From positions 37,924,862-37,988,861 of the forward strand of contig CM049307.1 in assembly GCA_026874595.1 (NCBI GenBank): a stretch of DNA of 64,000 bases, read 5' to 3'. Below are positions 11,925-59,100 of the stretch, one piece after another. Source of the stretch: Sipunculus nudus (Eukaryota > Annelida > Sipuncula > Golfingiida > Sipunculidae). The translations under genes and the position numbers were made by a program. The notes beneath the pieces are model-generated. The model had not been told where the DNA came from. It ran no database searches and saw nothing but the letters and a program-made list of their open reading frames with translations. How positions within the stretch are numbered: the stretch's first letter is position 1; each line of letters starts with the position of its first letter.

Positions 11925-14900
11925 CTTAATACAATACAATCCAAGAGACATAATACAATCCAATTGACATAACATTCAATTGAAATAATACAATCAAGGG
12001 GACATGCAATCCAAGGGACACAATAAAATCCAAGAGAAATACAATCCAAGGGACAAAATACAATACAAGAGACATATAATCCAAAGGACAAAAAATAAAT
12101 CAAAGAACTTGATACAATCCAAGGACATTTTATAATCAAAGAATATAATACGATCAAAAAGGACATAATACAATCAAAGGACATAATACAATCCAAGGAA
12201 CCTAATACAATCCAAGGACATAAACAATCCAAACCAAAATACAATCCAAGGACATAAACAATCCAAACCAAAGGACATAATAAAATCAACGGTTATAATA
12301 CAATCAAGGGAACATAAATAAATCAAAGGACCTAATACAATCCAAGGACATAATATATTCCAAGGACTTAATGCAATCCAAAGACATTAAGTAATCCAAG
12401 GGCAAAATATAATCCAAGGACGTAATACAGTCCAAGGACATAATACAATCCAAGAAGCATAATACAAGATAAGGGAAATAAAGTAATCCAAGGACATAAT
12501 ACAATCTAGGGGCATAAAACAATCCGAGGAACATAATACAATTCAAGGACATAATATTATCCAATGAAAACAATACAACCCAAGAAACATAATCAAACAA
12601 AGACACATAAGACAATCCAGGGACATGAAGCCATCTAAGGGCATAATTTTATCCAAGAACTTGATACAATCCAAGACATAATATAATCAAAGAATATAAT
12701 ACGATTAAAGGGACATAATACAATCAAAGGACATAATACAATCCAAGGAACATAATACAATCCATGGACATAAACAATCCAAGAAGATAATTCCACCCAA
12801 GGGAATAATATAATCCAAGAACTTGATACAATCCAAGGACATAATATAATCAAAGAATATAATAAAATCAAAGGTTACAATACAATCAATGGTACATAAA
12901 TCAATCAAAAGGCCCAATACAATCCGAAGACATAATATAATCCAAGAACATTAAATAATCCAAGAGCAAAATATAATCCAAGAACGTAATACAGTCCAAG
13001 GACATAATACAATCCAAGAAACATAATACAATCCAAGGGAAATAAAGTAATCCAAGGACATAATACAATCCAAGGACATTAAGTAACAAAGGCAAAATAT
13101 AATCCAAGAACGTAATACAGTCCAAGGACATAATACAATCCAAGAAACATAATACAATCCAAGGGAAATAAAGTAATCCAAGGACAAAATACAATCCAAG
13201 GATATAATTTGATTCAAGGACATAATACAATCCAAGGACATAATCCAATCCAAGAACAAAATACAATCCTAGAACATAATAAAATCGAAGAACATATTAC
13301 AATCCAGGGACAAAATACAATCCAAGGGCATAATACAACCCAAGAACATAATATCATCAAAGGCCCAATATACAATCTAAAGAATATAGTACAATTCACG
13401 GATATAATACAATCCAACGAACATAATACAACCAAAAAATCAGTCAAATACAGTCAAAGGGACATAATACAATCAAAGGACATTATACAATCCAACGAAC
13501 ATAATACAATCCGAGGACATAATCAATCCAAGAATTTAATTCCACCCAAGGACATAACATAATCAAAGGTTATAATACAATCAAGGGTACATAATGCCAT
13601 CAAAGGACCTAATACGCTCCAAGGACATAATACAATCCAAGGACATTGTATATTCCAAGGAAGACAAAACAATCCAAGGGATACAATATAATCAAAAGGC
13701 CATTATACAAAGGCCAATAATCAAACAAACATAATACAACCCAAGGTACATAATACAATCAAAGGCACATAGTACAATTTAAGGACATAATACAATTCAA
13801 GGACATGATACAATCCAAGGACATAATTTAATCCAAGAACTTAATACAATCAAAGGGACATAACACAATCCAAGGACATAATTTAATCGAAGTATATAAT
13901 CCAATAAAAAGGACATGATGCAATCCAAAGAACATTATACAATCCAAGGATTTCATACGATCCAAGGACATAAAGTAATCCAAGGGCAAAATATAATCCA
14001 ATGACATAATACAATCGAAGAAAATTAATACAATCCAAGGGACATAAAGTAATCCAAAGACATAATTAAATCCAAGGACATAATCGGATTCATGGACATA
14101 ATACAATCCAAGGAACATAATAAAATCGAGGAACATTTTATAATCCAGGGACAAAATACAATCTAAGGGAAATAATACAATCCAACGAACATAATACAAC
14201 CCAAGGAACATAATACAATACAAGGACGTAAAGCAATCGAAGGGCGAATATAATCCGAGAACTTAATATAAACAAAGGTTATAAATCAAACCAAGGACAT
14301 AAAACAATCCAAGGACATATACCAATCCAAGGAAAAAACATTACACATGAACTTAGTACAATCCAAGGACATGATTCAATTAAAGGTATAATATAATCCA
14401 AGCAACATTATAAAATCGAAAAACATATTATAATCCAAGGACAAAATACAACCCAAGGACATAATACAATCCAAGAACATAATATCATTCAAGGAACAAT
14501 ATACAATCCAAAGAATATCGTACGATCCAAGAACATAATACAATCCAAAGAACACAATACAATCCAAGGACATAAAACAATCCAAGGGAAATAATACAGT
14601 CCAACGAACATAATACAACCCAAGGAACATAATACAATACAAGGACATAAAGCAGTCGAAGGGCGAATATAATCCGAGAACTTAATATAAACAAAGGTTA
14701 TAAAACAAACCAAGGACATAAAACAATCCAAGGACATATACCAATCCAAGGAAAAACATTACACATGAACTTAATACAATCCAAGGACATGATTCAATTA
14801 AAGGTATAATATAATCCAAGCAACATAATAAAATCGAAAAACATATTATAATCCAAGGACAAAATACAACCCAAGGACATAATACAATCCAAGAACATAA

Positions 14901-16685
14901 TATCATTCAAGGAACAATATACAATCCAAAGAATATCGTACGATCCAAGAACATAATACAATCCAAAGAACACAATACAATCCAAGGACATAAAACAATC
15001 CAAGGGAAATAATACAGTCCAACAAACATAATACAACCCAAGGAACATAATACAATACAAGGACATAAAGCAATCCAAGGGCAAATATAACCCGAGAACT
15101 TAATATAAACAAAGGTTATAAAACAAACCAAGGACATAAAACAATCCAAGGACATATACCAATCCAAGGAAAAACATTACACAAGAACTTAATACAATCC
15201 AAGGACATGATTCAATTAAAGGTATAATATAATCCAAGCAACATAATAAAATCGAAAAACATATTATAATCCAAGGACAAAATACAACCCAATGACATAA
15301 TACAATCCAAGAACATAATATCATTCAAGGAACAATATACAATCCAAAGAATATCGTACGATCCAAGAACATAATACAATCCAAAGAACACAATACAATC
15401 CAAGGACATAAAACAATCCAAGGGAAATAATACAGTCCAACGAACATAATACAACCCAAGGAACATAATACAATACAAGGACATAAAGCAATCCAAGGGC
15501 AAATATAACCCGAGAACTTAATATAAACCAAGGACATAAAACAATTCAAGGACATAACACAATCCAAGGACATATACCAATCCAAGGAAAAAACATTACA
15601 CAAGAACTTAATACAATCCAAGGGATATAATAACATCAAAGAGATATAATACAATCCAAGGAACATAATACATTCTACGGACAATATAATCAAAGGATAT
15701 AATAAAATCATAGGGGCACAATGCAATCAAGGGAACATAATACAATCCGAGGATTTAATACAATCCAAGACATTATACAACCCAGGGACACAATAAATTT
15801 CAAGGACGTAGTACACTCCAACGAACATAATACAATCCAAGGACATAAAGCAATACAAAGGCATAATATAATAAAAGGAATATAATACAATCCAAGGACT
15901 TCAAGCGATTCAAGGTCACAACATAATCCAGGATCTCAATACAATCCAAGGACATAATACATTCCAAGTAATATACATGTAATATAATTAAAGAGACATA
16001 ATACAATCCAACGAACACAATACAACCCAAGAAACATAATACAATCTAAGGGACATACATTCCAAAGAATATAGTACCATCTAAGGACATAATACAATCC
16101 AAAGACATAATACAATCCGAAGGATATAATACCATTCAAGGAAATAATACAATCCTACGAACACTATAAAGTTAAAGGGACATAATACAATCCAAGGGAC
16201 ATTAATCAATCCACGGACATGATACAATCCAAAGTATTCAAGAAATTCCAAGGGACATAATACGATCAAGGAGACGTAATACAATCCGAGCATAATACAT
16301 TCCACGGACAATATAATCAAAGGATATAATAAAATCAAAGGGACATAGTGCAATCCAAGGAACATAATACAAGCCGAGGATTTAATACAATCCAAGGACA
16401 TAATACGACCCGAGGAACATAAAACAATCCAAGGACATGATACAATCCAAAAGACAAAAGACAGTCCAAGGACACAATAAATTCCAAGGACGTAATACAA
16501 TCCAAAGAAAACAATAAAATCCAAGGACATAAAGCAATCCAAAGGCATAATATAATCTTAGAAACACAAAACAGTCCAAGGACATAAAGCAATCCAAAGT
16601 CATAATATAATCCAAGAACTTAATACAATCCAAGGACATAATACAATCCAAGGAACATAATATAATTAAAGAGACATGATACGAT
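11925..16685. repeat. 18-bp satellite array with 418-bp higher-order repeat
   Basis: About 4.7 kb is built from variants of AATACAATCCAAGGACAT, with length variants around 18-20 bp and frequent 'aagg(g/a)acataatacaatc' joins. Between 14223 and about 15610 the array has a higher-order period of 418 bp. Near-identical blocks start at 14223, 14641, 15059 and 15477, giving three full copies and a partial fourth. On the minus strand the unit reads ATG TCC TTG GAT TGT ATT (MSLDCI), which explains the many 60-163 aa ORFs. These repeat in register and are by-products of an 18-bp (3n) unit, not genes. Edge copies are more degenerate. Confidence 0.95.
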
Positions 16686-16689
16686 CATT

Positions 16690-37300: not shown

Positions 37301-40300
37301 CAATTATTGTTTCGTCCATCTATCAATCCACAATCTTTTTGAAGATGTTGGTCCTGTGACCTTGACCTTTGACCTCATGACCCCAAAATCAATTCGGGTC
37401 TTGCTTTTCCAAAGGGACATATACAAGTCAAGTTTGAAATCTATACATCAATAAAAGCAGGAATTATCCAGAAACTAATTTTTGGACAGATGGCTCCTGT
37501 GACCTTCACCTTTGACCTTGTGACCTCAAAACTGATAGGGTTCTTCCTCTCTTGGCAGGTGAACTATATGTGCAAGATGAAAGGTCTGAGATGAAATGTT
37601 TGGCTGAAAATGCATCCATATCTTTTTAAATAGTATCCTGTGACCTTGACCTTTTACCTCATGACCCCAAAATCAATTTGGGACTTGCTTTTCCAATGGG
37701 ACATATACAAGTCAAGTTTGAAATCCATATGGCTATCAACACTGGAGATATCATAAGAGGTGTGTGGTTTTCACCAAATATGGACACATTAAAGGTCAAG
37801 GCCACTCTCATGGTAAAGGTCATGACCCAAATGGAAATAGACCTCATCCCATAACCCATCTCTCTACATCTAATATGAAAGAAATCTGTCCATTAGTTTT
37901 TGACTTATAATGCTTACAGTACTGTCAAGTGGCAATTATGGGGGTATTAAAAGGCGTAAAAACAAGAAAAGGATAAAAGGTGGCACCACCAGTTTCCGGT
38001 ATATCGCAAGGCTATCCAAGATCTTTGGTCTCCTTGATTTTTGGACCAGTCCATGCAAGCTTACTTGAGATATTTAAGAATTTGTGTTATTTTCAGCAAA
38101 AATGGACCTAATCAAGGTCAAGGTCACTCTCCTAGCATAGGTCATGACCCCATTTTAAATAGGCTTCGTCCCCTTACCTATATCTATACAAATGTAAAGT
38201 TTGAAAAAGATCAGTGAAATATTTTTTGAGTTATCCCGCTCACAAGTTTTTTCTGCGGCGGCAGGAGGGACCGTCGTGAAACCATAGTATCCCGACTTTG
38301 TCTGGGGATACAATAAACATCATCCAATAACCCATATCTATGTATATGCATAATATGAAAGAAATCTGTCCATCAGTTTTTGACTTATAATTTGCTCAGA
38401 GTACTGTAAAGTGACAATGATGGGGTATTAAACGGCACGAAAACAAGTAAAAGAATAACAGGTGGCACCACCTGTTTCCCGTACATGACAATAGTATCCA
38501 AGATCTTTGATCAAGTTGATTTTTGGACCAATCCATGCATCCCTTATTGAGATATTAATGATTTTGTGTAATTTTCACCATATATGGCAATATTAAAGGT
38601 CAAAGCCACTCTCATAGGAAAGGTCATGACCCCATTTATATATACATCATCCCATAACCCATGTCTATGTATATGCATAATATGGAAGAAATCTGTCTGA
38701 TAGTTTTTGACTTATAATGCTCATAGCACTGTTAAGTGGCAATGATGGGGGTATTAAACGGCACAAAAACAAGTAAAAGAATTACAGGTGGCGCCACCTG
38801 TTTCCGGTACATGACATTACTATCCAAGATCTTCTGTTAAGTTGATTTTTGGACCAATCCATGCATTCCTTATTGAGATATTAATGATTTTGTGTGATTT
38901 TCACCATATATGGCAATATTCAAGGTCAAGGCCACTCTCATAGGAAAGGTCATGACCCCAATTTGAAAAAATATCATCCCATAACCCATATCTATGTATA
39001 TGCATAATATAAAAGAAATCTGTCCATTAGTTTTTGACTTATAATGCTCACAGTACTGTAAAGTGGCAATTTTGGGGTATTAAACGGCACGAAAACAAGA
39101 ATAATAGGTGGCGCCACCAGTTTCTGAAACACGACAATCCTATCCATGATCTTCCATCAACTTGATTTTGGGATCAATCCATGCAAGATTTTTTTGAGAT
39201 ATTTAAGAATTTGTGTGATTTTCCCCCCAATTGGACCTAATCAAGGTCAAGGACACTCTCCTAGTAAAGGTCATGACCTCATTTAAATAGGCGTTGTCCT
39301 CTCACCCATATCTATACATATACCATGTTTGGTAAAGATCCGTGAAATATTTTTTGAGTTATCATGCCAACAAGATTTATATGCGGTGGCGGCGGCGGCG
39401 GGACCGGTATGAAAACATAGTATCCCCCAACTTTGTCTGGGGATACAATAATATTATTTATTTATAATAATCAATTTGTGTGATTTTCCCCCCAATTGGA
39501 CTTAATCAAGGTCAAGGACACTCTCCTAGTAAAGGTCATGACCTCATTTAAATAGGCGTTGTCCTCTCACCCATATCTATACATATACCATGTTTGGTAA
39601 AGATCCGTGAAATATTTTTTGAGTTATCATGCCAACAAGATTTATATGCGGTGGCGGCGGCATCGGGACCGGTATGAAAACATAGTATCCCCCAACTTTG
39701 TCTGGGGATACAATAATGTTACATCCCTGACAAAAAATCTCTAGCTTCAGCAATCCTCTTGTTAAGGGAGTAAATATATTTCTTGATTTTTTTAAAAAGT
39801 GCATTATGTTTGGGCCCATAACTTAAAACAATTACGCAATACTGACATCATTTCTGGCATGTGCATAGCGAATGTATAGAAAAATATGTATATTATATAT
39901 GATCAAAGTCAGATCAGTGGTTTTGATATTAGGCAATCTTACAGTGTAACAATGGGTTTTTAATGGAAAAAATGAAGTTTTTCATTAATATTTCGAAGGA
40001 ATTAAGTCCTAGTGATCGAATTCTCGGCATGGTAGGGGATTTTGGAGACATCTTACTGTATGCTAAATTTAAGGAACTTAGAGCTGAACTTTAGAGCATA
40101 ACTTTAAGCTGGGAAGCTGAGCTTTAGCAAACTGCATAACACTAGCTTGATGTAAACTTGATGTGACATGGTGCTTGAAAACTTGAATAAAATCTACAGT
40201 TTTTGGTTTCAAATTTTTGGTGTTAACAGACAAAATGCTAACAAAAACATGCTGTGTAAACTAAACCCATGGTACTTACAGGAAAAAAACGTGCCATGGT

Positions 40301-46300: not shown

Positions 46301-49300
46301 GATAAAGTATACAATTCATGAACAAGTCAATAACACTATAAACTAAGGCATATATTTGAAGACATGATGACCATGGACTACATTGAAAACCAAGCTATAT
46401 AGTACACAGTACCTCTGTCATTTAGTCTCTGCTGCCAGTGACATAAAAAAAACTTTTTTTCTTAAGTTTTTTAATATCAAGGTTACGTACTTACCTGTTG
46501 ACATGGTTTCATGGGGAGGACTTGATGGGGGTTTGGGGTCTATACCGCCGTCTCCTTGGGTCCTCATTCCTTCACTGTAACTGGAAGACGAAATACACCT
46601 TCAAGGAACAGGTCTTTACCTTTAGTGACCAACTACTTAACTGAGGTTGGACTGCTGACTTACATTGTAATCAATCAATGGAGTGTTATGTAACCACTAA
46701 TAGGAAGTCTCATTCCATGGTACCTGTTATGGCTTGTTTAATGTTCACTGCTAATTAACCTAATTAACTTAACACCTTTAACTAGGGCAAGACTACGGAG
46801 TCAAACTGTCAATAATCAACTGCACCCCATCCACTAGATTTACCTCATCTAAACAATATATGGGTATGAAACCACAACTATATATTCAATTAAAATTTGA
46901 TGGAACCATCCAAACAGAAAACCTTTACAATTTCAGTATGAGTAGCCCACCTGTGTATATTTGACCTTCACTATGACAGGAGAAGGCTAAGTATGACTGG
47001 ATAAGCAATCTGTTACTACCTATTTCATGATACATTTACAGGCATCTGGTAATTATATATAATAATTTTTGTAAGCTATGAGACACCATGAACATATTCA
47101 CTGCTTATCGCTCTGACCTTTTTGCACAATACTTAACTATCTGGAACTGATGTGGCTTCCATTATGAGAGGAAGGCTATCAGTGCAATAAAACCTAAGGT
47201 CATTGAGATGTTATATGGCAAATATTTGTTAATACCTGGATGCTAGTCCTTTCTGAGCTATCTGCAGGGCAAATGCAGCATTTTCTGTAGCAGCACCATA
47301 TGCAGGGATTTCTTCTTCTACCACTGAAATATAGGAATAAAATAAATAAATTCTATAATGTGCTTTCCATTTCTATGACATTTATGCCATGCTGCTTCTG
47401 TTTCTAAGAGTTCTGCAGTCTCTTTCAATGACATAATTTATTTTCATGCATTGTGTCTGTTATATCAATTATCATTTTTCCTGGGAAATAGTTCATCTTT
47501 TTAATACTTTGACTCTTACAAAACTGGTAAAACATCCAATTTATAATTATAGATACTTTGTTATCAAAAGTGAATAAGTTTAAATGTGACAAATGTAACA
47601 TTTAAATTAGTGCCTTCCCAGAGTATATTTCCACTGTGGGACAGTAACTTATAAGATTATATTTCCCCTGTGTGACAGTACCTTCCATTATATATTTCCC
47701 CTGTGGAGGAGTCCTTTACTGGAGTATATTTCCAGTTGGAAAGTATTTTACCTAAGTATATTTCCCTTGTAGGAGAGTACTTTACCTGAGTATTTATACC
47801 CCGTGAGAGAGTACTTTAACCGCGTACATTTTCCATGTAGGAAAGTACTTTACCTGAGTATATTTCCCCTGTGGGACAGTACCAGAGTACATTTCCCCTG
47901 TGGGAGAGTTCTTTACCTGAGTATATTTCCCCTGTGGGACAGTACCTGAGTATATTTCCCCTGTGGGAGAGTACCTGGGTATATTCCCCCTGTGGCAGAG
48001 TACTTTACCTGAGTATATTTCCCCTGTGGGAGAGTACTTTACCGGAGTATATTCCCCTGTGGCAGAGTATTTTACCTGAGTATATTTCCCCTGTTGGAGA
48101 GTACTTTACCTGAGTATATTTCCCCTGTGGGAGAGTACCTGAGTATATTTCCCCTGTGGGAAAGTACCTGAGTATATTCCCCCTGTGGCAGAGTACTCTA
48201 CCTGAGTATATTTCCCCTGTGGGAAAGTACCTGAGTATATTCCCCCTGTGGCAGAGTACTCTACCTGAGTATGTTTCCCCTGTGGGAGAGTACTCTACCT
48301 GAGTATATTCCCCCTGTGGGAGAGTATTCTACCTGAGTATATTTCCCCTGTTGGACAGCACTTTACCTGAGTATATTCCCCCTGTGGCAGAGTACTTTAC
48401 CTGAGTATATTTCCCCTGTGGGAGAGTAAATGGACTCAAAAGGACCTTCTGTAGAGCCAAAGTCACGGCCAACAGGGGTTAAGTTTGATGTTATAAAATC
48501 TGCAGGTACTTCACTGTAATTGAATTGATATAAAGAATATTAGACCTACACTGATAAACCTGAATCAGTGAAATGCTAAATCAGCAAAGTTAAAGATTTA
48601 ATTTAAATAAAAAATTTAAGCATTATCATTTGTAATTTGTAATATTTCAAAGGTAAAGTTCATAAAATATATAGACATAAATGTCTTTTTCTTATGTTTT
48701 CTGTATTAAACATATATTTATTAATATTATGAAAAGTCTGTATGTCAAATATCATGACGGTTACAGGCAATTAGATGTAACATTTACAGCTGGAAAACGT
48801 GGATGCAAAGAATGGCTGTTTTGTCAAAATGATTACCAGCAGTGAGGAATATGAAATGAATTACGACACAGGTTTATAAGGGCAAGCCAGGTAAGCACAG
48901 CCTCAGGTAACCATAACTGATACAGTGACTCACCTGGCCGATAAATCTGCTGAGCCCATTGAGCTTACATCTTCCTGCAAAGACTGTGAGTGCATCCTGA
49001 CAAGGGACCCCTGGGAGCTTATTCGTGGGATTCCCGATGATACCACCTGACCTGATCCTACAGATCCTGTGTCATCGGATGTGGGATCAAAGTCCATCGA
49101 TCCCTCCTTAAGACTACTCCCATCTGGGGATTGTTTTGCAGGTAAACTGGATGTGTCATTGTTGTATAACGCCTCTGCAGAGAAGTCAAGTGATGAAGTC
49201 TTTATGTTAGTATTCATGTCCATTGCATTAGTGTTTCTGTGTTCTTGAGTATCATCAAGCCTATTATTGTTATCACTTAGAGAACCTGGTCTGTTCACAG

Positions 49301-52300
49301 TACTGCTTTCTAAAGGGCTATCTGTTGTGTTACTTATATTTTGTATTTCACTCATATCATTCAATGACTCCCTAACATCCAAGTTCTTTCCTGCATCATT
49401 AACAAACATTGATGCAGGTTCAGAGTTCCGTCTTGTTTGAGTATTATGTCGATACGTGGAGTCAATCTTACTGTCTTGGACCATTGTAGTTGCTTGAACA
49501 CACTGAGCCACCTGGGGCTGTCTTGTGCTGCCCCCTGGTGACACATGGACAGACTCCAGGCTGGCCTGACTAGAGTTTGGCAGGGTGGGGCTGGTGATGG
49601 CAGAGCTTGGAGATGAACTGTAACAACTGATGCTGTCCTCATCAAATGACACCAACTTTGGGAGTTTCTTCTTTCTTTTCTTCTTCTCTTTCTTCAGGTC
49701 TGTCAATCAGATAAAAAATAAACATGTGATTGATACTGCAAATTGTACACTGTCTTTTCTAGTATAACCTCAGTTCCTTTACCAATAACGTCTACAGCAC
49801 ATACTAGTGACTCTAATGGCGATGGTTTTCCTTGAATATTCCTGTCTATATCCCTTTAAAACAATACATTAAATACAGATGATGACAGTAAGCTTTATAA
49901 AGGCTCAAACAGTAATATACAAGTCAGATGTAAAAACAAAAGGTTTAAAACCATAAACAGATTCCAAGAATGATCACCAGATGGCACTGACGGGCAGTTG
50001 AGGTATTACTGTAAATAAAATACAGTAAAATCTCACTAACATAACAACATGCGAAATCAGCCAAAGTGTAGGTGTTGGTGGGGTGGTTGTGTTAGAAGGG
50101 GGTTTTGTGATAATTAACTCTTAGTCTGAGACAAAAAAGTGGTCTGTTTGGTGGGGTGGTTGTATAAGTGGGGGGTTTCAGTGATAATTTACTTTAGGCT
50201 GGGACAAAAAAAAGTAGTCTGTTTGTGGGTTGGTTGTGACAGCGGGGTGGTCATCAGGTGAAATTTCACTGTTCATGTTTGCTGCGATTTTGAAGTACCC
50301 GTAAAACCACTGGACCACCCCTGTATTAAATTGCAAAAATGAACAGAAGCAAGTGAATATGAAGTTTCATCATCACAAAGTTACACAATATTATTTTTTA
50401 AATAATTTAAAAAAAACACCAACAACAACAAAACTCCTCTATGCTTTCAAATTTATGAAGATATTTCAATATTTTTGGGCATAAATCTTTATCCAAAACT
50501 ATTGCAACTAGAATACGGGTAGTCGACAAGCGACTTCGTGTATCTGCCAAAATCAGAGTGGAAGTGGGGGAAGTGAGGCATGGATTGAGTGGCAAGGGGA
50601 AATAGAGTGAGGTGTGTTGCATATAAGCATGGATGTCTGGCCCCTACCCTGATGTCTGCAGCTGAAATGTGTATGTAGGTTGCGCCACCTACCACAAAAT
50701 CCAGAAAGCTGTCCAAGTTGTATACATATGCAAAATTTTAGGCAGATAAGTCAAACAACTACATGTATATGAGTGATTTTATCTCACAGCAGACAAACAG
50801 AAGGACTTGTGCAAAAATGGTGGCAGGTGGCGCCACCAATTTTGTGTATGATTAAGAACTATGTGAGATCTATACACATGCAGAAGTTTCGGGGGGATAT
50901 GTCTAATCAGTCCAGAGATATAAGCCTGAATGTCTACAGCATTAACATAAATGTAGGTGGCGCCACCTGCAAAAAAATCGAGAAATCTATACAAGATGTA
51001 TAAACACCCAAAATTTAGGCAGATAAGTCAAACCACTACTGAGATATGAGTGATTTGAGCCCACTGCAGACAAATAGACGGATGCTGTGCAAAAATGGTT
51101 GCAGGTGGTCCCTCCAGTTTTGTGTATGATAAAGAGCTATGTGAAACCTATACACATGCAAAATTTTTGGCCCATTCGGTCAAACGGTTCCCGAGATATG
51201 AGCTTGGATGTCTGCAGCATAAACTGGAATGTAGGTAGTGCCACCTGTCATAAAATCAAGAAAGCTGTTCAGGTTGTATAAACCTAAAAAATTTTAGGCA
51301 GATATGTCAAACCACTGCTGAGATATGAGTGAAGTTATCCCAAGGCAGACAAAAAGAAAGACGCTGTGCAAAAATGGTGGCAGGTGGGACCACCAGTTTT
51401 GCTTATGATAAAGAGCTATGTAAGATCTAAACACATGCAAAATTGTGGCCCAATTGGTCAAACTGTTCCTGAGATATAAGCATGGATGTCTGCAGCGTGA
51501 ACGTGGATGTAGGTGGCGCCACCTGTCATAAAATCAATAAAGCTATCCAGGATGCATACACATGCCGAATTTCGGGTGAATTAGTCAAACCACTGCAGAG
51601 ATATAAGTGATTTTAACCCAAGGCAGACAAACAGATGGACACTGTGCAAACATGGTTGCAGGTGGCGCCACCATTTTTTGTGTATGTTATAAAGCTATCC
51701 AAGGGCTACATTTGTACAAATTTTTTTTCCTTGTGGGTCTAACGGTTCCCGAGATATGTGGGTTTTTGTGTGGAAACAGACACACAAATGGACGCTGGGC
51801 AGAGAGGAAAGGTCAGAGGTCAACGCAAATTTGTTAGGCACCAGTTCACGTGACCTGATAATTGGTGTAAGTTTTGGAAAAATCAGTCCAGTAGTCTCAG
51901 AGGAGTTCTCCGGAAACGAATGCGGCAGTGAAACCCGGTCAATAACATAGTATCTGCAAAACTTTGTTTTGGCTGATACAATGAATGAATATTCTTCTGG
52001 TATCTGACACTCTACATTAATATTGTTTTTTTTTTCCCCAACAAATAGTACAAACAATAAAGTACATTGTACATAAAGACAATATGTAGACAAAAACAAT
52101 TTGAAAGTCATACATACAAAACAGATACAAATAACAAAGGTACATTACAGAGATAAAACTGTTGTTCTTATTCAAATGCGGGTTACATGGGTTTTTTAAT
52201 CTTTATGTTGTTTTATTTGTTTTCTATATATATGTTTTGAAAGTTCTTCCACTTTTGTTTATGTTTCTCTATTTTACCCTTCGCACTCACAATTTGTTTT

Positions 52301-55300
52301 TCCATTTTATAAATCTGTGTGACATAATTTTTATACACAAAAAATGCTGGTAATTTCTCTCTACATTTGCAGGTATATATATAATATTTTAATAATAGTA
52401 ATAAAGTATCCAGTAGGCTGTCAACTGAGATGTTTAATATTAATACTGTTTCTGTTACATTGCCTAAGTTTAAAGATTGTTCCAGGGCGTTTGACCAATT
52501 TTCAAAAGCTATTAACAATTTATTGGTTACTTCACTGTGATAAAATATATGTAGATAAGTTTCCTTTTGTTTTTTACAGAATGAACAGAGCTCAGTTTCG
52601 CTTTTCTTCATTTTATATAAAAAAGGATTGAGTGGTAAATTCTATGTAATAATTTAAATTGGAAAATTCTTAATTTCTCTGAAATAGTAATTTTGACAAT
52701 ATTCTTGAATGCTTTAAATATTTTTCCTTTATTTTGTAGCCTTAGTTCACCAATCCATTTCTCTATTTGATGTTCTGGTTTAGAAGAGACAGAATTAATA
52801 ATATTTAAGTATACAAACTGTGTTGTATTTTTCATATTTATTATTTTGTCCACCATATATTCTTGTACTTCTAAACAAGGATTATTCTTTAACTCTCTTT
52901 TCCAACAAGTTGGGATTGCATCCACTAAACCTACATATTTTATAAAATTTATATTAACCTTGTATTTGTTAGTGAATTCTTTAAATGGCAAAAATGTTAG
53001 ATGGTTTCCTTATTTTTTGGTTATGTCAGAAAGCGTTTTTATGCCTGCCATATTTAATTTCTTATAAAAAACTACTGTACCTTTAACCTTTATATGAGAA
53101 TTATACCATAAGGTTTGTAATTGAATTTCATGTGTTTTGACGGTCTTATTAAAACTGTATTTGCACCAATGATGTAACACATCTTTCCAGAACGGGTCGC
53201 ATGAGTCACTGAAATTGTGTATATCGTGTTCTTTTAAATTGCATTTAAAAATATATGAACCCAGGTTTTTAAATTGTACATTAATAATCTGTCTCCAGCT
53301 ATTTTCTAGAGGTCCATTGAGGAACCGTTTAACCCATGAAATTTTTAAAGATTGTATCTTAGATGGAAGATGAATCATATTCAGCTCTCCTTTATTTTTT
53401 GGTGCAATCATTGTAGATCTTTTAACTTTATCTGGTTGGTTGTTCCAAATAAATTTAAATATTAATTTTTCAATTTCTTTGATATAATTATTTGGTGGAC
53501 TTGGTAGTACTAAGAATAAATAAGTTAGCTGAGAAATTATGCAGGTTTTTACAATAGTTATTCTGCCTGCAAGAGACATTATTCTGTTGCTCCAGGTATT
53601 AATAATAACTTTAATCTTACTCAGGATTTCTTTATAGTTGATCTTTATAATTTTTTTTCCATTCCGGATGAATGGAGACGCCTAAGATTTTTACAGGATT
53701 GGTGCACCATTGTAAGCCTAGAGATTTTAATGTATAATGATTATGTGTGTTAGCAGTTATTGGCATTATTATTGTTTTTCTATATTTACTTGGAGTCCCG
53801 ATATTTGTTCAAAATCTGAGAATACTATTAAGGTTTCTTGCACTGACCGAGGCCCCCCTGTTAATGTTAAAACTGTATCATCAGCATATTGTATAATTTT
53901 GTGTTCTTTCTGATCTATTATTACTCCATTTATGTTACTATTGTTCCTGATTTCGGTTGCTAAAGTTTCTGCTGCCAGAATAAATAAATAGGGAGAAAGA
54001 GGGCAGCCCTGCCTTACACCTCTAGTTACTGGAAAGAATTCTGTAGCCCAGCCATTATTTAATACACAACTGTGAATATTGCTGTATAATAACTTTATCC
54101 ACTTCCTGAATTCAGTTCCAAAGTTAAGTATTTTAAGAGTATCTTGAATACATGGCCGTTCTAATTGATCGAAAGCTTTTTCAAAGTCCACTGATAACAA
54201 GTAACCACATTTATTAGTTGCTCTTAAATAGGAGATTATGCCAGTAATTTTAATAATATTTTCTCCAATATACCTATTTTTCATGAATCCAGTTTGATCA
54301 GTGTATTAAAGAGGGTAAAACTAGTTTAAGTTTATTTGCTTATGTTTTTGCTAATATCTTGTAGTCTGTATTTAGAAGTGAAAGGGGGCGCCAGTTCTTC
54401 AAATATAAATGGTCTTTTTCTTTCTTTGGAATGAGGCATATAATTCCTTGACGCATAGTTATTGGAAGGCAATCCGTATTGAAGGAATAGTTAATAGCAC
54501 TTACAAAATGTTCTTTTAAATCCCCCCAAAATGTTTTATAGAACTCAACTGGGAATGTGTCAGGACCTGGCGATTTATTAAGAGACATTGATTCAATTGT
54601 AGATTTTAATTCCTCCTCTTTAAATTCTTCCTCACATAATTCCTTTTCATCTTCATCAAGAATTTTAAGATGTTCTGTTGAAAGAAAATTTCTATTTGGG
54701 CATTTGAGATAATCTCTGGCTGTATATAAATTTTTATAAAATTGTAATTCTTCTTTTAAAATATCTTTGTGTTCTGAAATAATTTTCCCATGTTGATCTT
54801 AGTTTTAGTATAGATTTTTTATTGTAATTTCTTTTCTCCAAATTGAGAAAGTATTTGGTCGATTTATCTCCCTCTGAGTACCATTTGGTTCTACATCTCA
54901 CTATTGCACCTCTGTTTTTTTCTTCAATAAGTTGTCTGTGTTTGTTAACTGCTTCCTCCCAGCTTTCTCAGTCTTTAATTTCACCTGTTGTATTAAATAT
55001 ATTATGTAGGTCATAATTTTTTTTCTAAAAGTTTTATATTTTGTGTTTTCAATTTTTTCCTTTATACTGCATAAGCTATGGTTTCTTCTCTTATTTGGCA
55101 TTTTATGGTGTCCCATAATAATGTTGGGTTTGTTTCTTTATTATTAAGGACTGTTGTTTTTATACATTCTTTTACTGTGGTTATGTAACTTTCTTCGTTT
55201 AACAGTGAACAGTTTAATTTCCAGAAGCCTGGTCCATGTTTATGTTCTGTTTTTATAATACTGATAGTAATTAATGAATGGTTGCTTTTATATCTTGCTT

Positions 55301-56155
55301 TAATTTCTGACTGACTGATACTATTAATTAGGCTATCGTTAATTAGAAATTAATTTAATCTGCAAAACACTGGATCAGGTAGATATCTATGCCATATATA
55401 TTCCAAACTATTAGGGTGTTGTAGTCTCCAAATGTCCAACAGCTGTTCTAATTCTATCAAGTGATTTATTACTTGTCTAGATTTATCATGACTGTTAGAA
55501 TTTCCTCCTTTTTTATCTAATGCCGGATTTAAAGTTAGATTGAAGTCTCCTCCTATTATTAAACTGCCTGTAGCATGGTGATTCTCAGAGTTAATCAAAT
55601 CTTCATAGAACCTAGGATCATCCCTATTAGGTGCATAGATGTTTACTGAGGTGAGGTCGTGTTCACATATTGTTATATTAATAATTAAATATCTTCCAAA
55701 ATTATCATTAATTACCTCTTTAACCTGAATTCCTGATCTGTTTTTAATTAGTGTGCAAACCTTTTGCTTGGCTAGTGCCCTGGCTAAAATATATCTCATA
55801 ACCCCATTCTGTTTTCCACCTATTTTCGCAATCTATTGTACTGTTGGTCTCTTGTAAAAATATGACAGAACTTTTCTTTCTATTCAACCAATAAAAAACT
55901 TCTATCCTTTTTGAGTAACTTGCTAGACCTCTAGCATTAAGTGATGTTATCTGACAAATATTGGTCATAATTGGTTATATTGATTAGTTTTTCTGAATTG
56001 GCAGAAATGCCAATATATATGAATATTCCTGCATCTGTTAATGTACCTACAATACATACAACATATACAGTAGACATGTAGAAATACATAAATACCTTAA
56101 ATAATATAAACATTGACATAAACATGAGATAATAAGCTTACCAGTTCAATAAAAA

Positions 56156-56187
<32 letters not shown>

Positions 56188-59100
56188 GCTTACCAGTTAT
56201 GACATGCAATAAGTTCTGCTACATGAGTACCAGAAAGAGTGCCTGTCGAGTGCTGACTGCTAATTAGTGGAGCTCTCTACATTATTATTGAAAGCTTTGA
56301 ATTTAATAGCAATAATAGACTGTGATTCACAATATATTCCAAATCATATTATAAATTACTGGCAGACTGAAACTCTGTATAGAGGATGGCCATGAAAAAG
56401 GTTGTTATCAAAGACTTACTTGAGGCGGTCATTTTGAGTACATTAATGCCTCGTAGCAGACATGCCAGTTATATAAAAAAAAACAGAATATAAAGGATTA
56501 ACAAGTTTGCATTTACATTCATAGATGTAATGCCTCATTTAATGAAAATCTAAAGTCCCGTATCTACATTAATATTGTACTTTCTGTGAAATTATCAAAA
56601 TAAATTATTAAGGATATATGTAACTGACCGGTCTGAACAGGACTTGGTTCCCCTGCTATCACTGGCTGAAGCTGCTCGTCTATTCTGTCTGGTTTGGCCC
56701 TGACTGGCTGTGGGGTTCTGATTAGTGTATCTAAACCTGATGCAGGCTTAATAGAGTTCAGTTCCCCATTGTCTATATTTATGGCAAACAATATGGACCC
56801 TAAACCTGTAAGAAAAGAAAATATAACAGATTGATAAACACTGCTCCTTTTACTCCTTGGTATCTACCAACATATTACTGAAAACATTTTACTGTTAAAC
56901 TTGATATGCTAATTTCTAATGATCTTTTTTTTTATGAAATAGATCTACTTCAATAGGTCAAAAAGTGATGAATCATTTACATGCATAAAGCAATAAAGGA
57001 TTCAACAGTTTACCAAAAAACAATGTATAACATGACAGGATTATTCAATTGTGAATTTATGTGAGGGAAACAATGGAGTGTCCTTTTACTCAACATTGTT
57101 TATCTCTGGATTTTTATTTTCCACATGTGGAACAGCATTTGGGGGGTTTCTTGTATGTAGATTCGTGCATGTGTGCCAAGGTTGTTTCAAACCAAATGAA
57201 CCTCCGCTCCCCCACTTATCATGGCACTTCATTAAGCAGCATAATCAATGATGTCATCCTCAACGCTCACCATGACATGATTACTATATTGTGGTATGTT
57301 GTCAAGGATTCTGATGCAGTCTCGCAGTAATCAAACATATCAGAGGAGCAGTACCTAGTTACTCACAGAATCCCATGGTGGCTCTACTTGAGCCCCTCAG
57401 CGGGTGCCTGGGCAATCCCTGGTGCCAGCAGCCATGCTAGTTGGGTTTCACACCTATGTGTGAGGTTCTTATCAGATTTTGATAACACTGGACTGCTATA
57501 AACGGTGCAGTATGCACTTCTTTTCATTAAAACGTCTCGGTTAAATCAACAGTAAATAATTCCACTATATTACCTGCTGCCATCATGGTCAGCATGCTGC
57601 TTCTTTCTTGGTCCCGCAGGAATGCCCAGTCTTCATAGTGCTGTCTGCAGTGAAAAACGGTATGTCAGCTTATAGACTTAGTGATATACTAGAAACCTTG
57701 TAAAACATCTGTAATGGGATTAATAACATTTTCATTTTGTTGTTAAATACAGCATTCCTGGCTTCTACTTTTCTGACAATCACAAGTTCTCTTATCTAGA
57801 AAGGAGACAAATTTCATTTTCTTACACTTTTTCATTTCCTTGGCCTTAAATCTCAACTATCAAATAAGGTGATTAATCCCTTGATGAATTATGTCTATGA
57901 GAATTACATTGCTAATCATACACACATTCCTCTGACCATTTGACAATCATAAGATAAGGTTAAAAGCACTGCATCTTCAGCTTTGTATATATTTCAATAA
58001 CACAAACAAAAATTAAAAGATATAGATATTTAATACCAATCTGAGCAACCTCAACAGAGAAAACTGTGGCACAGCAACTCTTGTCATTATATACACCTGA
58101 CATATTTGTACAGATTCAAGTTACAATGATAAGAATGGATACACTTTTAAACAAATTAGTTAAGCAACTAATTTCAGAGTTATTGTTTCAACTGCAGCAA
58201 AAAGATCATTTGTGGACTAATCTGAGCAGGTTTCATATGACCTACATATAAGAAGATCTCTTGTTTTAAGAAAATATCTTAAAAAGATACTTTCTTAGAC
58301 CTTGTGGAACAGTCTAAAAACAGTTGTCATCAAAGAGGGATTGTGTTCAGACATAAAAAAATATGTTGTTCATGTAAACAGGTGCAAACTGCAGAGAAAT
58401 TCATTCATGCTTATGCATATCAATGGCATACATAATATGTGTCATTGATAAAATGCAGCATATAATGAACTTCCTCTGCAGTATGCGATGATATGGAAAC
58501 ATGGGTTCTATTACACTTGATTCCTAGGGTTCCAACAACTTATGTAAAATTTCTCCTTTACAGGACTTACTTGAGAAGGCTCTCATTCTCTAGAAGCATG
58601 TGCAGGTATTTTTCAAGGGAATGTTCATTGAATGTGGATCTCAGCCATGCACGCCCCCTGCCTGCGTCTGTGTTGATGCTTTTCAGGCTTGTGTATCGCT
58701 GAACCTCATGTTTGCTTAAATATTCTCTCACATAATGCCAAAACACTGCAATAGTCACAGAATTTATATATCATTATCCACATATATGATAATATGATTA
58801 AATATAATAAATGACCCTATGAATGATTTTTCTATATTTCAAAATTGTAAAAAAAAACATGAAAAAGAATTTCCACAAATTTTAACACCTTCACTTGTGT
58901 CACTTTCAGTGACTCTTGTTGGTGTCATCAGAACCACTCTTTGAAATAATGTAGTTCTTATGATTTGTCAAGTTTAAAATACTAAAACTATGTGTGTTTG
59001 CTACATAAAATCTATTCACATGCATGACTATATATGCCTGAACAGACCTGGCTCAGTTTCCATGTTCTTTATGTCTGTGATCAGACCAATGCTGGACACT

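Follow-up and report, generated by a model that had tools for sequence, protein, structure and literature searches.

Intron 9 of an SNX29 homologue was found to be largely occupied by a 34-bp minisatellite that, with a probability of roughly 0.78, was seeded by duplication of the adjoining exon-intron junction and is normally removed whole with the intron, its copies being possible decoy donors. According to this reading, a 34-bp stretch lying across the exon 9-intron 9 junction would have been tandemly duplicated and then expanded over about three quarters of the intron, and TACTC direct repeats, of which the unit has two and the following unit another at its start, would be a plausible trigger of the duplication. 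Every copy would have a donor because the seed straddled the donor. The array repeat by itself far exceeds what chance would produce, which cannot be said of the frame neutrality of its units, the feature that led the preliminary description to regard them as micro-exons.

The window, that is, the whole stretch of 64,000 nucleotides of Sipunculus nudus DNA that was analysed, carries this gene on its minus strand. As proposed in the preliminary description, the gene is, by sequence comparison, a homologue of SNX29, a sorting nexin with RUN and PX domains. Pfam recognized RUN at 58.6 kb (2e-10) and PX at 42.1 kb (4.1e-07), and 13 of the 18 tblastn rows obtained with a human SNX29 query were collinear on the minus strand; the remaining five were weak (E 1.5-9.9) and placed elsewhere. 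RUN, a coiled region and PX follow each other in this order, as in SNX29, the coiled region being judged solely from collinearity with the human sequence. The exons surrounding the array are as follows, their numbers serving as labels and not as a full count.

Positions 49699-48934, minus strand: exon 8, which joins exon 9 in an open frame.
Positions 48401..48513, minus strand: exon 9, 113 nt, which leaves one base and ends in ESIYSPTGEIYS plus G.
Positions 47323-47236, minus strand: exon 10, which joins exon 9 in an open frame.
Positions 47324..48400, minus strand: intron 9, 1077 nt, of which the array takes up 792 nt (74 percent).

Exons 8, 9 and 10 constitute one continuous open frame, which stays open on to exon 14 once an exon 11 with its end at 46495 is included; five starts are possible for exon 11, and 46580 was used in the frame test through exon 14. 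Two of the possible acceptors of this exon, at 46574-46586 on the minus strand, lie 6 nt apart (ttccag/TTACAG/TGAAGG, slashes marking splice sites here and below) and are both in frame, and the second of them resembles the exon 9 acceptor (ttacag/TGAAGT). The splice-site tables used below comprise 16 donors and 16 acceptors annotated in the SNX29 homologue; they leave out the donor belonging to the exon at 56805, the exon 11 acceptor, and any exons that may lie at 45.07-43.92 kb, 43.80-42.75 kb and 56.6-49.7 kb. Another intron of the gene harbors a reverse-transcriptase element on the minus strand (52213-55974), with RVT_1 recognized at 2.8e-24 in the piece 53769-54305; the open pieces in this interval are several and apparently belong to one element.

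The array was delimited by two procedures that agreed on the count of about 25 copies given initially. TRF reported positions 47614-48429 with a period of 34, 25.0 copies and a score of 723, and a wraparound alignment resolved 25 units and a 4-nt partial one between 48428 and 47609. It was also correct that exon 9 ends inside the first unit, given that unit 1 (48428-48395) overlaps the annotated exon end at 48401. The array is divided as follows.

Positions 47613..48428, minus strand: minisatellite of 25 units with the 34-bp consensus TACTCTCCCACAGGGGAAATATACTCAGGTAAAG, followed by a 4-nt partial unit to 47609.
Positions 48395..48428, minus strand: unit 1, in which the final 28 nt of exon 9 are followed by the initial 6 nt of intron 9.
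Positions 47848..48394, minus strand: units 2-18, homogeneous copies with hypothetical 15-nt exonlets (14 nt in unit 12).
Positions 47613..47847, minus strand: units 19-25, decayed, with CAG/GTA in one of seven and [CG]C[CA]ACAG in one of seven.

All 25 units are in register with the exon end, which favors seeding by the junction. Unit lengths are 34, 29 and a few others, and the six 29-bp units (6, 8, 9, 14, 15 and 17) have lost 5 nt after the donor. The preliminary description had further suggested that copies become more degenerate with distance from the exon and that the array grew from the exon outward. The first idea holds for blocks, since the mean number of mismatches per unit was 2.0 in units 1-9, 1.3 in units 10-18 and 4.6 in the decayed units 19-25, and fails as a slope: divergence and distance from the exon did not correlate within units 1-18 (Spearman -0.15, p 0.54), and the correlation over all 25 units (rho 0.49, p 0.013) was due to the distal seven. 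A gradient of outward growth within units 1-18 was consequently rejected.

The same anatomy bears on the opposite order of events, in which an intronic minisatellite came first and reached the exon, so that exon 9 gained its last residues by adopting the donor of a unit. Unit 1 matches the 34-bp consensus exactly and has the same sequence as units 10 and 13, and such lack of distinction from interior units is what would be expected if the exon end were one more unit. However, nhmmer found no decayed copy on the exon side of the array, whereas the edge away from the exon is decayed, and this order of events is considered distinctly unlikely. In a search of the whole window for stray copies of the unit outside the array, the best nhmmer match (46962-46949, E 1.7) was treated as chance; it lies after exon 10 on the minus strand (AAATATACACAGGTGGGCTACTC) and resembles a unit fragment.

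Searches in other collections were of little weight. An exact 25-mer of the unit had 0 matches in viral_contigs, and the RUN exon gave 69 pattern stretches there, none of which was a confirmed relative, although absence from a virus collection says little; the same applies to the prokaryote collection genome_contigs, in which the exon 9+10 peptide gave 128 pattern stretches, none confirmed. Tandem repeats are abundant in the surrounding region, so that a minisatellite within an intron is less of a surprise. The longest entry of the TRF list for the window is a 4.7-kb array at 11933-16687 with units of ~18/36 bp (AATACAATCCAAGGACAT-like), and arrays of longer period were found at 50651-51698 and 38312-39721 (278 bp x 3.8, 326 bp x 3.0, and 265 bp x 1.9 at 98 percent matches).

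The donor is the part of the splice-site apparatus that was clearly amplified together with the exon end. Two features in the first units are needed to follow its consequences.

Positions 48392..48403, minus strand: exon 9 donor, CAG/GTAAAGTAC, a weak 9-mer whose last exon base is 48401.
Positions 48363..48365, minus strand: TAA in the unit 2 donor (CTC AGG TAA AGT), the first stop for exon 9 extensions to donors 3 to 22.

CAG/GTA is present in 17 of the 25 units, and all but one of these units, like all but one of those with [CG]C[CA]ACAG, fall within units 1-18. Among these 18 proximal units, AG and GT are intact in every one, and AGGT is found at the donor in 16. The complete 9-mer of the exon 9 donor, CAG/GTAAAG, recurs in units 2, 10, 13, 16, 18 and 20. 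It had been claimed that the donor-to-acceptor structure is kept in spite of the alternation of 34-bp and 29-bp units; this is true for GT, but positions +4 to +6 are altered in the six 29-bp units, five of which read CAG/GTACTN and one, unit 17, CTG/GTACTG. An excess of constraint on the splice columns could not be demonstrated: 18 of the 34 columns are invariant in units 1-18, the chance that four particular columns are all among them is ~0.07, and the copies are not independent.

When exon 9 was extended to later donors, 21 of the 22 donors led to truncation, directly or by frameshift, and a frame open through exons 8-14 was obtained with donor 1 only; extension to donor 2 reached a stop in exon 11. 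Since only donor 1 yields the full protein, the first, exon-proximal donor is most likely the one used, judging from the frame, and the whole array would leave with the intron. The strength of this donor points in another direction. It scored 5.52 with the gene's own matrix (15th of 16), 7.61 with a human matrix (13th of 16) and -9.70 as a duplex with the U1 5′ end in duplexfold (9th of 16, with one bulged base). The 9-mer of unit 2 is its equal, and units 6 and 8 (7.37) and 11 (8.07) score above it by the gene's own matrix, which is small. Donor 1 being weak and matched or outscored, the sequence offers no explanation for a preference for the first donor. Outside the annotated sites, GT sites with a human-matrix score of at least 7.6 numbered six in the array vs 14 in the remaining 19,080 bases spanned by the gene, some of the latter possibly being donors of unannotated exons. 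A further duplication in the human CBS gene, 844ins68, for which the available part of the article reports splicing chiefly at the more distal of the duplicated sites (PMC2630376), is a warning against assuming that the first copy wins.

According to the junction-seeding explanation, the copies would thus be decoy donors whose use would produce a longer exon 9 and a truncated protein, and the length of the array could lower the amount of productive SNX29 mRNA and would not diversify the protein. A stronger version assigns a regulatory role to this competition: array donors would compete with donor 1, the longer, stop-bearing exon 9 transcripts would be degraded, and copy number would tune the SNX29 dose. 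The six further donors identical to the real one and the truncation caused by 21 of the 22 donors are consistent with such a poison extension, as is the link between repeat number and activity reported for human CBS in the part of the article available (PMC5188458). A neutral decoy array would, however, look identical in sequence, and the regulatory version is accordingly held to be possible, though rather unlikely.

Weak donors may also receive help from the intron. Intronic G-runs help weak donors, and the array could be an intronic splicing enhancer in which G-runs and many U1-pairing sites downstream of the exon 9 donor raise exon 9 inclusion. The low rank of this donor by the gene's own matrix and the presence of GGGG in 21 of the 25 units would suit this role. 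It is nevertheless judged improbable, since the G-runs merely belong to the copied exon sequence. RNA folding was also evaluated. Three short stretches of the array folded little or no better than shuffled sequences (z -0.29, -0.05 and -1.40), and a 665-nt stretch of exon 9 and the array gave z -3.16 against 20 shuffles, a value probably inflated by repetition. Two small hairpins are possible in unit 13 (48004-48036, minus strand), with ACAG in the loop of one, and UCAG in the loop of the other, whose stem contains the donor GUA; they are not more stable than shuffles (z -0.05).

The acceptor side of the units has a different history. The motif [CG]C[CA]ACAG was found in 19 of the 25 units and the exact CCCACAG in 12, and the full arrangement of acceptor, one of the two 15-mers and GTA in 14, so that the statement that nearly every unit carries both motifs describes units 1-18 well and not all 25, in which CAG/GTA and CCCACAG are limited to 17 and 12 units, respectively. 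In unit 1, CCCACAG is coding sequence, TCT CCC ACA GGG (S-P-T-G), at the end of exon 9, whose peptide closes with IYSPTGEIYS. The copies carry this acceptor-like motif because its bases encode Ser-Pro-Thr-Gly at the exon end, and CCCACAG has become 'acceptor-like' in the intron only via duplication. Its context also departs from that of real acceptors. Units 2-18 have three to five T at positions -20 to -4 vs 6-12 in the 16 annotated acceptors, all 17 units being below every one of the latter, and the previous AG lies 11-13 nt upstream in 15 of the 17 units (17 and 27 nt in units 12 and 18) vs 16-75 nt in the annotated sites. Other measures do not separate the two sets: total pyrimidines overlap (7-11 in units 2-18 vs 7-15 in annotated acceptors), and with the gene's own 23-position acceptor matrix 20 of the 21 array sites scored in units 2-25 reached 1.5 to 6.8, within the leave-one-out range of the real acceptors (-1.8 to 11.7), the exception being unit 21 (-5.3). 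The claim that splice sites were amplified along with the exon end therefore stands for the donor; for the acceptor, which is a coding CCCACAG whose copies have a T-poor context and mostly a close upstream AG, it is not supported.

These observations weigh on the proposal that the units are alternative micro-exons, by which variable numbers of GEIYS or GGIYS pentapeptides are spliced into SNX29. The frame arithmetic behind it was correct: exon 9 leaves one base, and a 15-nt insert between exons 9 and 10 keeps the frame in 16 of the 17 units 2-18. AG and GT in the proximal units and acceptor scores mostly within the real range also agree with it, and alternative splicing of symmetrical micro-exons is described for schistosome micro-exon genes (MEGs) in the accessible part of one report (PMC4015677). 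Yet it was an overstatement that any number of units could be inserted. Unit 12, with its 14-mer, would shift the frame, and the hypothetical introns would measure 14 or 19 nt between neighbouring units, so that joint use of two adjacent units is hardly to be expected; between units two apart the introns would be 43-53 nt long, which is more favorable to the proposal. The scarcity of T, the upstream AG, the tolerated 5-nt deletions that alter six donors and the lack of demonstrable excess constraint on splice columns all speak against micro-exons.

Frame neutrality itself adds little. In seven of the 16 exons examined, exon 9 included, the last 40 nt contained a YAG whose distance from the donor was divisible by three. 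In the six other exons (6/15), this YAG was placed 3 nt from the donor in three and at 12 nt or more in three. Being this common, frame neutrality needs no function, and it was rejected as a sign of function. Altogether, micro-exon use of the units is regarded as very improbable, and even further from probable is a working, expandable micro-exon bank, in which spaced units would be spliced as 15-nt exons adding GEIYS or GGIYS in some tissue or in some individuals. Were such a bank real, minisatellite mutation would change the repertoire between individuals, and an exonic codon run would have been made an acceptor by duplication. If the array is ordinary, it offers a caution, as duplicated junctions can create frame-neutral pseudo-exons that seem designed.

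Known systems, considered here through the parts of the publications that were available, place the array in a familiar setting. Schistosome MEGs resemble what the preliminary description proposed in that their short symmetrical exons can be skipped with no change of frame, and the 16 of 17 units with a 15-nt exonlet likewise follow their multiples-of-three rule. MEG micro-exons are, however, seen in transcripts and can make up as much as 75 percent of the coding sequence according to the excerpt (PMC4015677), unlike the 15-nt pieces of the SNX29 homologue, which are hypothetical, lie in one intron and are 14-19 nt apart. Within the literature surveyed, in the parts available, no description was found of minisatellite copies acting as frame-neutral micro-exons. 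SNX29 appeared in no title or abstract beginning of that literature, although it was no query term, and no claim is made that the locus is unpublished.

Repeats that influence splicing or sit at junctions are better known. For the human MIR137 VNTR, repeat length is reported to correlate with the use of alternative donors; these donors lie in the pre-miR-137 sequence and outside the repeat, in contrast with those of the present array (PMC6692358, as excerpted). In human paralogues, variable internal tandem repeats at exon-intron boundaries are described as giving rise to novel introns or to transcripts that retain the repeat (PMC2812944, available text). The position at the boundary is shared with the SNX29 homologue; the human repeats, as described there, belong to recent segmental duplications and have transcript support. 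Introns made of tandem repeats in fission yeast (PMC3629103) and a duplication crossing an intron-exon junction in potato (PMC4974935), both from partial texts, provide a further likeness, since in intron-creating tandem duplications proto-splice sites are present in the units, and duplicated exon-like units make up the intron. These duplications yield a new intron, whereas the junction copied here already possessed a donor.

The closest precedent for the array is, by analogy, the human CBS 31-bp VNTR at the exon 13-intron 13 boundary. Its name, c.1444_1467+7(16_21), describes a unit of 24 nt of exon and 7 nt of intron (PMC2630376, in part), so that each copy would contain the exon end, the first intron bases and a donor, and the unit of the SNX29 homologue is built in the same way (28 + 6 nt). 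Both arrays also show single-base differences between units, and the 16-21 copies of CBS can be likened to the number found here. The CBS units are described as having a constant length of 31 bp, in contrast with the 34, 29 and few other lengths of the SNX29-homologue array; CBS copy number varies and is associated with activity, more repeats reportedly going with lower CBS activity (PMC5188458, PMC1395315, both as available), while the present array was read from one haplotype only. One review, in the portion available, calls the CBS repeat non-coding. The array is ordinary in kind, with an attractive geometry and human precedents, and its nucleotides give no convincing indication of a use of the copies as additional exons. 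As a counterpart of the human CBS exon-end VNTR, it places seven identical donors (the real one plus six copies) behind a single acceptor, and such a donor ladder would allow donor choice, decoy-donor load and minisatellite-driven variation in expression to be measured in one locus.
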